From Actinomyces capricornis (GTDB lineage: Bacteria; Actinomycetota; Actinomycetes; Actinomycetales; Actinomycetaceae), in NCBI RefSeq assembly GCF_019974135.1, contig NZ_AP025017.1, positions 310,001-374,000 on the forward strand: a stretch of DNA of 64,000 bases. Reading direction: 5' to 3'. Numbering within the stretch: the first letter of the stretch is position 1; every line of letters starts with the position of its first letter. Shown one piece after another: positions 4,673 through 8,338 of the stretch. A program made the position numbers and the translations under genes. A model generated the notes under the pieces. It was not told where the DNA came from and searched no databases. It saw only the letters and a program-made list of their open reading frames with translations.

Positions 4673-4746
4673 TCGGGCTGGCGGGATTTGAACCCGCGGC
4701 CCCCTGCTCCCAAAGCAGGTGCGCTACCAAACTGCGCCACAGCCCG
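4673..4746 (-). tRNA. tRNA-Pro (TGG)
   Basis: Cloverleaf on the minus strand. The acceptor arms at 4740-4746 and 4674-4680 pair perfectly over 7 bp with discriminator A at 4673. The anticodon stem CCTGC/GCAGG encloses the loop TTTGGGA, giving anticodon TGG (Pro). The T-arm contains TTCAAAT flanked by paired bases. CCA is not encoded exactly. It sits just downstream of tRNA-Gly and rpmF on the same strand. Confidence 0.95.
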
Positions 4747-4794: not shown

Positions 4795-4865
4795 AGCGGG
4801 TGACGGGAATCGAACCCGCGCAATCTGCTTGGAAGGCAGAGGCTCTACCATTGAGCTACACCCGC
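4795..4865 (-). tRNA. tRNA-Gly (TCC)
   Basis: Cloverleaf on the minus strand. The acceptor arms 4859-4865 and 4796-4802 pair perfectly over 7 bp. The anticodon stem TCTGC/GCAGA encloses CTTCCAA, so the anticodon is TCC (Gly). The T-loop TTCGATT is present. The gene lies between rpmF and tRNA-Pro, all on the same strand, and may be co-transcribed with them. Confidence 0.95.
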
Positions 4866-4902: not shown

Positions 4903-5067
4903 TCAGTGCTCGATGAGACCGGCCTTGTAGGCCCGCACCAGACGGCGGGGCACAGTGATCTTGCGGCCACCGATACGAATGGTGTCGAGCGTGGTGAGCT
5001 CGGCCTTCCACTGCGAACGGCGGTTGCGGGTGTTGCTGCGGGACATCTTCCGCTTGGGCACTGCCAT
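4903..5067 (-). CDS. rpmF: 50S ribosomal protein L32, cysteine-free form
   Basis: A 54-residue protein starting [24 protein letters not shown], the hallmark N-terminus of bacterial L32. The C-terminal half ([22 protein letters not shown]) lacks the four zinc-binding cysteines of the C+ type, so this is the zinc-independent form, also known from mycobacteria. The start at 5067 is set by an AGAGGAG ribosome binding site upstream and by family length; a longer in-frame reading to 5181 is not needed. It is not in the usual rpmF-plsX/yceD operon. Instead tRNA-Gly and tRNA-Pro follow on the same strand. Confidence 0.95.
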
Positions 5068-5307
5068 GGAGCCGCTCCTCTCAAAGATTCTGGGGATCAT
5101 CCGATCCGGCGAAAACTGGACCGAGGGACACCATAACGACTCCGGGGCTGGGGCATCCAGCCCGAAACCACTGTCGACCATGTGACATCGGTCCCGTCAC
5201 CCGGCCCCGACGAGCCACCCACCGCTGGCCGCCTCCGACCCCCGCCTACCGGCCCGCCCGCCGCGACACCTCACCGGTCGGGCTCTCCCCCATGGGAGGA
5301 TGAGCGA

Positions 5308-6027
5308 ATGAGCCCGTCCCAGGCCAGCGAGCCGTTCTCCTCAGCCCGGGCACCCCTGGCCCCGGCGCGCACCGACCACCCGCAGGTCGACCTGGAGGTC
5401 AAGCGCTCCCACTTCCTGGGGCGCGCCGCCCGCGCGGACACCGAGGAGGAGGCCAGGGCCTTCATCTCCCGCATCCGCTCGACCTACCCCGACGCCCGCC
5501 ACCACTGCTCGGCCTTCCTCCTGGCCCCGCAGGGCGCCCAGCCCGTGGAGCGCTCCAGCGACGACGGTGAGCCCTCGGGCACCGCGGGCCAGCCCATGCT
5601 GGAGGTCCTGCGCGGCAGTGGGGCCGTCAACGCCGTCGTGGTGGTGACCAGGTACTTCGGCGGCACCCTGCTGGGCACGGGCGGCCTGGTGCGCGCCTAC
5701 TCCGAGGCCACCTCCCGAGCCCTGGCCGCGGCGTCGTGGGTAGCGCTGGGCAGTGTCCACCTGTGGGAGGTCCGGATTCCCATCGCGCAGGCCGGCCGGC
5801 TGGAGGCCGAGCTGCGGGCACTGCCCGCGCAGATGGGGATCGGCACGCAGGAGACCATCTGGGGGCCGACCCACGCCGTCCTGACCCTGACCACCACCTC
5901 CCCCGACGCCGTCACCCTGACCGAGGTCCTGGCCTCGCGCACCCAGGGGCAGGCGGTGCCCGAGCCCGCGGGCAGCCGCCTCATCGAGACCCCGACGGCG
6001 CCCCCGCCACCGTGGCCCCATAGCTGA
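5308..6027 (+). CDS. YigZ / IMPACT family protein
   Basis: A 239-residue protein of the UPF0029 (IMPACT) family. The N-terminal domain carries EVKRSHFLGRAAR (about residue 30), the conserved DARHHCSAF and SSDDGEPSGTAGQPML segments, and VVVTRYFGGTLLGTGGLVRAYS (about residues 110-135). A DUF1949-type C-terminal domain follows. Bacterial members are linked to translation regulation by homology with eukaryotic IMPACT, but the molecular function is not established. The ATG at 5308 is chosen because GGGAGGA lies 7 bases upstream; the frame is open further upstream but has no better signal. The gene is divergent from rpmF. Confidence 0.9.
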   Translation: MSPSQASEPFSSARAPLAPARTDHPQVDLEVKRSHFLGRAARADTEEEARAFISRIRSTYPDARHHCSAFLLAPQGAQPVERSSDDGEPSGTAGQPMLEVLRGSGAVNAVVVVTRYFGGTLLGTGGLVRAYSEATSRALAAASWVALGSVHLWEVRIPIAQAGRLEAELRALPAQMGIGTQETIWGPTHAVLTLTTTSPDAVTLTEVLASRTQGQAVPEPAGSRLIETPTAPPPPWPHS

Positions 6028-6352
6028 ACGCCTTCTGCTGGTTCACACGCATGCCGCCCGGTCAGAACGGACGAACCGGCCCAGCGTGATGCGAGTGACC
6101 CAGCAGAACATGCGGCGGCCGTCAAGCCGACGGCGAAACAGTGCCCACGATGCGATCCTGCAGGTCACCACACCCCAGGACGACGGTAGGGTGCCGCCAA
6201 GCGCCGTCACTCGAAGGCCGCCACGCCGGTGGCCGATGGGCGTCGTAGAGGGGCTCCATGCCCGAGCTGCACATACCGACCGAACCCCACGCCCCGTCCG
6301 GGCGGCCCTCCGGGCACCCGGAGCACGGGAGCCGGGACCGGGATGATTCGAA

Positions 6353-6409
6353 AGGAGGACATCATGAGGGCTGTTCCCGCCATGCCCGTCATGCGTCGCA
6401 TGTCCTCCT
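6353..6409 (+). promoter_or_regulatory. Helix sequestering the leader-peptide ribosome binding site
   Basis: AGGAGGACAT at 6353-6362, which includes the Shine-Dalgarno sequence of the leader ORF, is perfectly complementary over 10 bp to ATGTCCTCCT at 6400-6409 inside the same ORF. The 3' arm ends exactly where the first Cys codon (6409-6411) begins. A ribosome paused on the Cys codons would cover the 3' arm and keep the helix open. A ribosome that finishes the ORF would let it form. The pairing is seen directly; the regulatory role is inferred. Confidence 0.5.
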
Positions 6410-6426
6410 GCTGTCGGTGTCGGTAG
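6364..6426 (+). CDS. Cys-rich leader peptide upstream of cysK
   Basis: A 20-codon ORF with a very strong Shine-Dalgarno (AAAGGAGG ending 5 bases before the ATG) that ends in ...SSCCRCR. Cysteines are residues 16, 17 and 19, encoded by TGC, TGT and TGT at 6409-6414 and 6418-6420. Clustered codons for the end product just before the stop are the mark of an attenuator peptide. Cysteine-responsive attenuation by short polycysteine ORFs is known in mycobacteria. Here the downstream genes, cysK and cysE, make cysteine. The distance to cysK is 294 bases, enough for alternative RNA structures. The peptide itself probably has no function apart from translation sensing. The gene is too short to prove by composition alone, but signal and context agree. 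Confidence 0.65.
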   Translation: MRAVPAMPVMRRMSSCCRCR

Positions 6427-6448
6427 GGCGCCAGGCCACGATATCCAG

Positions 6449-6468
6449 TGCGCGCGTCGCTGCGCGCA
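6449..6468 (+). terminator. GC hairpin after Cys leader ORF, possible attenuator
   Basis: TGCGCGC at 6449-6455 pairs with GCGCGCA at 6462-6468 (7 bp, 6-base loop), starting 22 bases past the leader stop codon. No T-run follows. It could be an attenuator element or a pausing hairpin; this is inferred from position only. Confidence 0.3.
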
Positions 6469-6720
6469 TGCCCGGCGCTCCCCGTGCAGCCCCTATCCTG
6501 CTGCCACCCCATGCGGCCGCGAACCGCACCCGGGCCCGCCTCGAACAGGTCTGGTGCCGCCGGCGCTCTCACGCCGACTCCGGGACCCCGGAGCCCCGGT
6601 GGGCACAGCCACCGATCAGACCCCGATCGGCACTGCCCTCAGGCGCTGCAACCGGCCCCGCACCGGCCCAGGCCCTGCCAGCCCGCCCACGCACGCAGAA
6701 GCAGAAGTAAAGGAATCACC

Positions 6721-7650
6721 ATGGCCTACGCAAGCGACGTCACCGGCCTCGTCGGCAACACCCCCCTGGTCCGCATCAACCGCATCACCGACGGCGCTCC
6801 AGCCACCGTCCTGGCCAAGGTGGAGGCCTTCGAGCCGGCCTCCAGCGTCAAGGACCGCATCGCCCTGTCCATCGTGCGCGCCGCCGAGGCCTCCGGCGAG
6901 CTCAAGCCCGGGGGCACCATCATCGAGGCCACCTCCGGCAACACCGGCGTGGGCCTGGCCATGGTGGGGGCCGCCCTGGGTTACCGGGTGGTCATCACCA
7001 TGCCCGAGACCTTCTCCAAGGAGCGCCGCGCCATCATGCGCGCCTTCGGCGCCGAGCTGGTGCTGACCACCGAGGGCGGCGTGGCCGGAGCGGTCAAGCG
7101 CGCCGAGGAGATCCAGGCCGCCACCCCCAACTCGATCCTGGCCTCCCAGTTCACCAATCCCGCCAACCCTAAGGTCCACCGCGAGACCACGGCCCGGGAG
7201 ATCCTGGAGCAGACCGGCGGCGAGCTCGACGTCTTCGTGGCGGGCATCGGCACGGGCGGCACCCTCACCGGTGTGGGCCAGGTGCTGCGCCGGGAGAAGC
7301 CTGAGGTCAAGATCTACGGCGTCGAGCCCGCCGAGTCCCCGCTGCTGAGCGAGGGCTCCTGGTCCCCGCACAAGATCCAGGGCATGGGCCCCAACATCAT
7401 TCCCGAGGTCCTGGACCAGCAGGTCTGGGACGAGCTGCTCCACATCAGCTCGGAGCAGTCCATCGCCTACGCCCGCCGCGCCGCCGCCGAGGAGGGGCTG
7501 CTGGTGGGCATCTCCTCCGGCGCCGCACTGGCGGCGGCCGCCGAGCTGGCCAAGCGCCCCGAGTTCGAGGGCAAGACGATCGTCACGGTCCTGCCCGACA
7601 CCGGGGAGCGCTACCTGTCCACGGTGCTGTTCCAGGACCTGCTCAACTAA
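6721..7650 (+). CDS. cysK: Cysteine synthase (O-acetylserine sulfhydrylase)
   Basis: A 309-residue PLP enzyme that converts O-acetylserine and sulfide to cysteine. The PLP lysine is K44 in the ASSVKDR motif. The substrate/phosphate loop TSGNTG is at 71-76, and the [10 protein letters not shown] loop binding the PLP phosphate is near 175-185. Length and the [10 protein letters not shown]-terminus match CysK A-type enzymes rather than CBS or CysM. The ATG at 6721 has AAAGGAA 6 bases upstream; the long open frame upstream is just leader. It is followed by a perfect hairpin and then cysE, a typical cysK-cysE pair. The Cys-rich leader ORF suggests control by cysteine supply. Confidence 0.97.
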
Positions 7651-7744: not shown

Positions 7745-8338
7745 ATGCCCAAGCCGCCCAGACCGGCCACGCCGATACGCCGCCTGCTGGAGCAGGCCCG
7801 CGGCGACCTGGCCGCCGCACGCAGGCGCGACCCCGCGGCGCGCTCCAGCCTGGAGGTCGCCCTGCTCTACCCCGGGGTGCATGCCCTGTGGGCCTACCGC
7901 GCCGCCCACCAGCTGTGGAACCGCGGACACCACTTCTCGGCGCGCGCACTGGCCCAGATCGCCCGGGGCGCCACCGGTATCGAGATCCACCCGGCCGCCA
8001 GGATCGGCGAGCGCTTCTTCATCGACCACGGCATGGGCGTGGTCATCGGTGAGACCGCGGAGGTGGGCGACGACGTCCTCATGTTCCACGGCGTCACCCT
8101 GGGCGGAGTCTCGATGAACCCGGGCAAGCGCCACCCCACCATCGGCAATAACGTGCAGATCGGGGCCGGGGCCAAGGTCCTGGGGCCGGTGACGGTGGAG
8201 GACGGCGCCAAGATCGGTGCCAATGCCGTGCTGGTCAAGAACCTTCCCCAGGGGCATGTGGCCGTGGGCGTGCCCAGTCGGGCCCGCGATCCGCGCACGG
8301 ATCCCGAGCTCATGCTCGACCCCACCATCTACATCTGA
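7745..8338 (+). CDS. cysE: Serine O-acetyltransferase
   Basis: A 197-residue short-form (EpsC-like) serine acetyltransferase that makes O-acetylserine from serine and acetyl-CoA, the substrate of the neighbouring CysK. The N-terminal helical part contains [14 protein letters not shown] left-handed beta-helix of hexapeptide repeats follows from about residue 75, with the signatures [33 protein letters not shown] and [22 protein letters not shown]. The catalytic His of the family lies in IDHGMG. The ATG at 7745 has GAGGAGA 7 bases upstream. The C-terminus ends a few residues after the last coil (...DPTIYI) and is not the extended CysE tail that binds CysK in enterobacteria. Confidence 0.96.

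Follow-up and report, generated by a model that had tools for sequence, protein, structure and literature searches.

Classical trp-type attenuators place the control codons of a leader peptide just 5' of a stem that is reached by the terminating ribosome, and leaderless short ORFs encoding polycysteine, described by Canestrari et al. in 2020, reportedly act in mycobacteria as attenuators in which the ribosome site of the next gene is masked. Cysteine leader peptides were predicted earlier in Mycobacterium and Propionibacterium acnes (cys operons) and in Bifidobacterium longum (cbs) by Seliverstov et al. 2005 (PMC1262725); the accessible parts of that study report no conserved hairpin able to act as a terminator in the Mycobacterium regions, suggest Rho instead and call the other attenuator elements of the Cys leaders missing. 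Further reference points, each as given in the available portions of the source, are putative uORFs with regulatory Cys codons marked in M. tuberculosis (PMC13236596), the ilvB uORF attenuator of Corynebacterium (PMC10272879) and the uORFC-8-2 motif, a cysS attenuator candidate of the alpha-proteobacterial Rhodobacterales (PMC8632094).

The locus analysed here, upstream of the cysteine synthase gene cysK of Actinomyces capricornis, shares with the leaders of PMC1262725 a short ORF whose Cys codons are close to the end, a position upstream of actinobacterial cysteine genes, the absence of an obvious terminator and a suspected involvement of Rho, whereas a covarying stem rooted in the stop codon (P1), a last Cys codon that is UGU and a fixed spacing set it apart from those leaders as far as the accessible text describes them. 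Like the LEU element of actinobacterial leuA, it joins a leader ORF to a conserved RNA structure without classical attenuation, but the LEU element is presented in the same accessible text as a pseudoknot whose base stem pairs Leu codons with the leuA Shine-Dalgarno (SD) sequence, a pairing that is absent here (PMC1262725). The uORFC-8-2 motif also has uORF Cys codons beside conserved stems and a proposed ribosome-mediated attenuation; it belongs, however, to another phylum and another gene, and in the available description the first stem contains its Cys codons, with an intrinsic-terminator-like U-run following (PMC8632094).

The literature searched, which most subscription papers lay outside, showed no description of the element. 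A known RNA family was likewise rejected: Rfam 15 returned one chance-level lncRNA match in 6300-6730 (6326-6369, E 4.1), away from P1, and among 12 diverse loci scanned at E up to 0.5 it gave tRNAs and a single weak plastid match that overlaps a tRNA, with nothing at the element. The mycobacterial polycysteine attenuators reportedly also use an ORF with a run of Cys codons as sensor and a stalled ribosome that prevents an RNA structure, but they are reportedly leaderless whereas the leader here has a strong SD, and pairing of the cysK SD with P1 or the leader does not go beyond chance here. As in trp-type attenuators, the control codons adjoin a stem to which the terminating ribosome extends; unlike in those, this stem has neither a conserved alternative stem that excludes it nor a U-tract. 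For one large group of actinobacterial Cys leaders, a conserved covarying partner structure is thereby described, and the covariance model now enables annotation of the element.

We propose, with a probability of about one in two, that the locus is a cis-regulatory, ribosome-gated attenuator of cysK-cysE in which a starved ribosome at the last UGU would hold P1 open. Its leader, stem, spacing and gene association are directly observed; a response to cysteine, a role for Rho and the polarity of the switch are inferred. More tentatively, the element may represent an order-level RNA class in which one stop-codon-nested stem and one invariant UGU 8 bases upstream would form the whole switch, a single-hairpin class with no competing helix, no U-tract and no masking of the gene's ribosome site.

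The window, that is, the whole 64,000-nucleotide stretch of DNA that was analysed, comes from a genome of 3.17 Mb whose closest named cysK matches are Actinomyces, at 82-88% identity. Its relevant features are as follows.

6353-6359, plus strand: SD sequence of the leader, AGGAGGA, read from the sequence
6353-6409, plus strand: start-codon hairpin, from the minimum free energy (MFE) fold and accessibility tests, a genus-level feature only; its helices are 6353-6362/6400-6409, 6363-6367/6389-6393 (CATGA/TCATG) and 6368-6371/6384-6387
6364-6426, plus strand: leader ORF of 20 codons, MRAVPAMPVMRRMSSCCRCR, with ATG at 6364 and the stop TAG at 6424-6426
6409, 6412 and 6418, plus strand: leader Cys codons TGC, TGT and TGT
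6418-6420, plus strand: last leader Cys codon, UGU, the proposed sensing codon, 8 bases 5' of P1
6426-6436, plus strand: 5' arm of P1, from the third base of the UAG stop, pairing with 6470-6480, from covariation
6448-6469, plus strand: P2 hairpin (6448-6455/6462-6469) inside P1, 8 bp in all 10 sequences of alignment A2
6470-6480, plus strand: 3' arm of P1, GCCCGGCGCTC, from covariation
6481-6720, plus strand: spacer from P1 to cysK, C-rich and G-poor, with a Rho-utilisation-like composition
6721-7650, plus strand: cysK, cysteine synthase A (TIGR01139, E 8.6e-127)
7745-8338, plus strand: cysE/epsC, serine O-acetyltransferase, the downstream gene (TIGR01172, E 2.2e-69)

The leader peptide ends in SSCCRCR and 294 bases separate its stop from the cysK ATG (6721); the 20-codon Cys leader with a strong SD 294 bases before cysK, noted in a preliminary description of the locus, is therefore borne out by the sequence. 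An NCBIfam search with the 20-residue peptide gave no match at E up to 1. The leader ORF goes far beyond chance: the same organization recurs in the relatives, as an SD-led, Cys-rich ORF ending in Cys-x is found at the same place in all nine named Actinomyces cysK loci (L006-L014). A GGAGGA motif lies 5' of the leader in 10 of the 10 Actinomyces sequences compared, window included, and in all ten the leader start is preceded by an SD rather than leaderless. Farther upstream, two tRNA genes (4673-4746 and 4795-4865; Rfam) and a gene for an L32-like protein (4903-5181) lie on the minus strand, and the gene directly preceding the leader (5182-6027) encodes a UPF0029-family protein. By eye, promoter-like TTGACA/TTGACG motifs stand 17-18 bases before TAGGGT or similar in relatives L010-L013, very roughly 45-70 bases 5' of the leader SD, and in the promoter region of the window only TAGGGT at 6187-6192 is evident.

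The preliminary description had centred on the leader and its SD and had overlooked a larger feature, namely the covarying stem whose first base belongs to the stop codon. P1 consists of 10 pairs and one mismatch (6433/6473). A nearly identical stretch directly 3' of the leader stop is shared by the window and the nine other named Actinomyces loci, and the sequence identity of P1 and P2 is very high in the 10 Actinomyces sequences of A2. In the family alignment A4, a sequence-only alignment of 64 chosen representatives, 97.3% of P1/P2 cells pair and compensatory changes occur in 11 of 15 pairs, including 8 of the 10 P1 pairs; the outer 5 pairs of P2 form in 96.9% of the cells. Doubly changed cells number 39 against 7.0 in shuffles, and none of 500 column shuffles matches any P1+P2 measure. 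When substitutions were kept per column and placed randomly on the tree, 0 of 500 such simulations equalled the P1 pairing or its number of compensated pairs and 42 reached its count of doubly changed cells, while for P2 the pairing exceeds all 500 and the change counts were reached by 68 and 63. Order-wide, all 10 P1 pairs are compensated, with 99 doubly changed cells as compared to 24.3 after shuffling. An R-scape-like pairwise test, whose null was made by shuffling substitutions, singled out no pair as significant (best P1 pair E about 11), and we used such structure-level counts instead. Covariation extends to the stop codon itself, whose third base forms a G-C pair in the case of UAG and an A-U pair in the case of UGA (L197, L244) or UAA (L275, L280).

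Three covariance models were used in the genome searches: R1 from the 10 Actinomyces sequences, R2 from 64 family members and R3, order-wide. Within the genus, R1 matches at E up to 1 occur in 48 of 49 genomes, 47 of them at E 2.3e-4 or better and all before cysK, and the element thus lies before cysK in 47 of the 48 genus genomes that have the gene. The exception, G047 (best R1 E 0.29, counted as a miss), has cysK and no upstream element by R2 or by the rule described below; in G037 R1 matched nothing, and a search for cysK was likewise negative. Among the 213 family genomes, 206 of which have cysK, R1 matched in 90 (E up to 0.1) and R2 in 115 (E up to 0.01), with a few of the latter false (e.g. 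G160) and many family genomes left without a model match. Upstream of cysK lie 86 of the 90 fetched R1 matches, a set that leaves aside a few weak second matches and G134, as do three of three further family matches (L197-L199) and then nine of nine more. In a 396-genome order sample R2 matched 60 genomes, 38 of them outside the window's family, and in 32 of these 38 the best match is upstream of cysK. R3 matched 77 of 297 order genomes; for this tally, as for the R2 family tally, part of the matches were checked for cysK. A class-wide R3 search (394 genomes) gave 18 genomes with a match and none before cysK outside the order, and tblastn of cysK on the 17 matches other than the window yielded only G219, of the same order. 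Weak R3 matches precede cysK in Schaalia canis (L019) and in an Actinomycetaceae MAG (L015), and at E up to 1 none is listed for L016-L018, L020, L024 and L041. In the window's own genome neither R1 (E up to 1) nor R2 (E up to 0.01) detected further copies, and DNA matches elsewhere in it are short and weak. In sum, almost every Actinomyces genome searched has the element upstream of cysK, as does a portion of the order.

Since covariance models favour paired sequences, we also ran a rule-based scan of cysK upstream regions for a Cys codon, one codon, a stop and an inverted repeat from the third base of the stop, in 40 family genomes that had no R2 match at cysK (among them G160, with a weak R2 match elsewhere). 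It gave 10 hits, 9 of them plausible (9/40 genomes), compared to 0.44 expected from shuffles and 2 hits on the reverse strand; the tenth, L300, with the peptide MCR, was judged spurious. The P1 sequences of the plausible elements differ yet pair, two of them use UAA with an A-U closing pair, and TGT is the last Cys codon in all nine. L282, among the 40 genomes scanned, has by eye a bulged version of P1.

The anatomy of the leader was counted over 130 loci, which are interdependent and come mostly from covariance models favouring P1 and TGT. Left out were 11 fetched matches without cysK, namely 4 of the 90 R1 matches (L180-L183) and 7 of 40 later ones (L213, L221, L225, L226, L235, L236 and L246, of which L221 ends at a contig edge); in several cases a named locus comes from one of the numbered genomes (e.g. 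L019/L267 and L015/L301). All 130 loci have a start codon in frame with the last Cys codon, and an SD-like motif of at least 4 bases precedes the leader in 126/130. Cys stands two codons before the stop in 122 loci (UAG in 120, UGA in 2), a count in which L173 is scored as such although UGA directly follows its UGU, and directly before the stop in 2. The usual stop is missing in the remaining 6, which retain the UGU and P1 with unchanged spacing and use the next in-frame stop. In these stop-less elements (L127, L152, L155, L198, L199 and L245) that stop comes 15 bases later, where the P1 5' arm ends, and a second in-frame stop is seen at this point in some normal members too (e.g. L141, L143 and L161). 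Two to five Cys occur among the last 8 leader codons in 118 of 122 loci and a single one in 4. The last Cys codon is UGU in 129/129 anchored loci, L245 having failed the anchor used for the UGU and spacer counts, while the remaining leader Cys codons are TGC 263 times and TGT 82 times, and the C that follows the last UGU is also conserved beyond coding need. So strict a UGU suggests a constraint at the RNA level beyond what a model with closed P1 as the OFF state explains, and in GC-rich genomes it raises the question of codon choice at sensing codons.

P1 is followed by at least 5 T in 7 bases in only 1 of 122 elements (0.54 expected by composition; L223, L224 and L229, with no P1 by rule, lie outside the count), and it is therefore not a usual intrinsic terminator. 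The one counted, L239 (G050), has TTTTTT directly after P1, and L304 (G083), as seen by eye, has TTTTTCT; in these two lower-GC lineages P1 resembles an intrinsic terminator. As a general feature an intrinsic terminator was rejected, the U-tract being confined to G050 and G083, and a terminator consensus scan of the window region found none. Two further candidate designs were discarded over 115 loci: a classical antiterminator/terminator switch, as pairing of the P1 arms with leader or spacer did not exceed that in shuffles, and masking of the cysK ribosome site, as the cysK SD pairs with the P1 3' arm or the leader no better than shuffles. The spacers have more C than G in 125/129 cases as compared to 74/129 upstream control stretches, with C minus G at 0.154 versus 0.017. 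They are thus C-rich and G-poor, as Rho sites are, a composition from which a role of Rho might be deduced.

The conserved Cys leader peptide very probably makes expression of cysK-cysE dependent on the supply of Cys-tRNA. Given the fixed distance between the Cys codon and P1 and a stem that starts in the stop, a ribosome at the UGU or at the stop should interfere with P1, whose formation would, from geometry, depend on ribosome position. In the attenuator that we propose, a ribosome supplied with ample Cys-tRNA would pass the UGU, terminate at the stop and depart, upon which P1 would close and the untranslated C-rich spacer behind it would let transcription end before cysK, by Rho in most lineages and perhaps by an intrinsic terminator where U follows P1. 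Under Cys-tRNA shortage the ribosome would pause with the UGU in the A site. The leading edge of a ribosome lies about +15 from the P site, and as that of the paused ribosome would cover the first approximately four bases of P1, the stem would stay open and cysK would be transcribed. The exact geometry (UGU, 8 bases, stop overlapping P1) makes the question of cysteine sensing in these bacteria accessible to direct tests.

What counts against closed P1 as the OFF form is that ribosomes short of Cys-tRNA would be expected to halt first at Cys codons before the last one, with P1 free to close, and for this reason the reverse polarity, although we consider it unlikely, is a serious rival. P1 would then be the ON form, antiterminating or Rho-excluding, of the same element: when cysteine is plentiful, a ribosome at the P1-overlapping stop would block P1 and transcription would stop, whereas at low cysteine a stall further 5' (in the window at Cys codons 6409 and 6412, 14-17 bases before P1) would allow P1 to form. 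First stalling at earlier codons fits this polarity at least as well. Also in its favour are the 2-5 Cys near the end of most leaders (118/122), the overlap of stop and P1, a layout shared with classical attenuators, whose antiterminator is masked by a ribosome standing at the stop, and the six stop-less loci, in which the next in-frame stop still sets the ribosome on the P1 5' arm. Such a switch would be harder to reconcile with the finding of no conserved terminator competing with P1, with loci where the last UGU is the only near-end Cys codon (L015/L301; 4/122) and with a last UGU too near P1 to leave the stem wholly free.

It is improbable that P1/P2 is instead a protein-binding or RNA-processing site beside the leader ORF, with control exerted through a factor or through mRNA stability. 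The near-identity of P1 and P2 in the 10 sequences of A2, the conservation of the UGU and its following C beyond coding need and the lack of a detected competing structure would all suit such a site, but the P1 sequence changes compensatorily across family and order, and a fixed distance from Cys codon to P1 is expected only with the ribosome as sensor.

The preliminary description had located its control element at the leader SD. There, AGGAGGACAT (6353-6362) and ATGTCCTCCT (6400-6409) are reverse complements without a mismatch, pairing the SD with codons 13-16 over 10 bases up to 6409, where the first Cys codon (TGC) starts, so the reported exact 10-bp complement is confirmed. The MFE fold of 6340-6440 (-39.4 kcal/mol) contains this helix, and its stability is ordinary (z -0.62; equalled or exceeded by 55 of 200 shuffles). 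Among 300 synonymous recodings of the window leader (L108), in which the peptide was kept while codons were drawn anew according to usage, 32% have an SD-region complement of at least 10 bases, and for its sibling L121 a complement of the same length arises in 29%. The exact 10-base complement is present in 2 of 45 genus leaders, these same two, and 9 bases in two more, and over the 45 the length of perfect SD complementarity does not exceed what synonymous recoding gives (mean P 0.50). Of the rows in that test, which L140 and L125 (no start) stand outside, 43 are sound and two, L098 and L134, are read from starts 219 and 363 bases upstream.

Accessibility behaves differently from exact complementarity: in the 45 genus leaders the unpaired fraction is 0.20 versus 0.31 in recodings for the SD and 0.07 versus 0.28 for the start codon. 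In a length-capped test, with codon usage taken per locus from its own cysK and similar leaders clustered as a crude handling of kinship, the genus start codon is unpaired at 0.03 versus 0.22 recoded and lower in 11/11 clusters (p 0.001), with the SD less accessible in 10/11 (p 0.054). Beyond the genus there is no burial effect (start codon lower in 26/45 clusters, SD in 25/45), and ordinary gene starts, a control of only 19, show no start-burial bias. According to these folding predictions, the genus Actinomyces has a start-codon hairpin, of which the 10-bp helix is one version, and there the hairpin probably also restricts ribosome loading.

The comparison with relatives that had been suggested as a check therefore gave a divided answer. 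The Cys leader is kept in 9/9 named Actinomyces loci, and the notion of Cys-tRNA coupling finds support; the SD-sequestering helix is not supported as the conserved core, and the idea that the SD is closed survives as burial of the start codon within the genus only. The corresponding model, in which ribosome pausing at the Cys codons keeps the leader-SD helix open and this loop regulates, is most improbable, since the exact window helix and the burial of SD and start codon within the genus are outweighed by the 2/45 count without enrichment, by retention of P1 and the UGU outside the genus where the start codon is not sequestered, and by longer leaders (e.g. L097, by eye) in which a long distance separates the Cys run from the codons facing the SD, so that a ribosome stalled on it would not keep the helix open.

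Two smaller features lie 3' of P1. A GCCCCG tail (CGCTCGCCCCG) follows the stem and is identical in 15 rows of A5 (60 chosen representatives), from families of the order other than that of the window (L200-L237). In the spacer of the window a small hairpin at 6512-6528 has TGCGG/CCGCA enclosing CCGCGAA, and in relatives its counterpart reads, by eye, GACGG/CCGTC with a similar loop, which suggests a second conserved stem in some Actinomyces.
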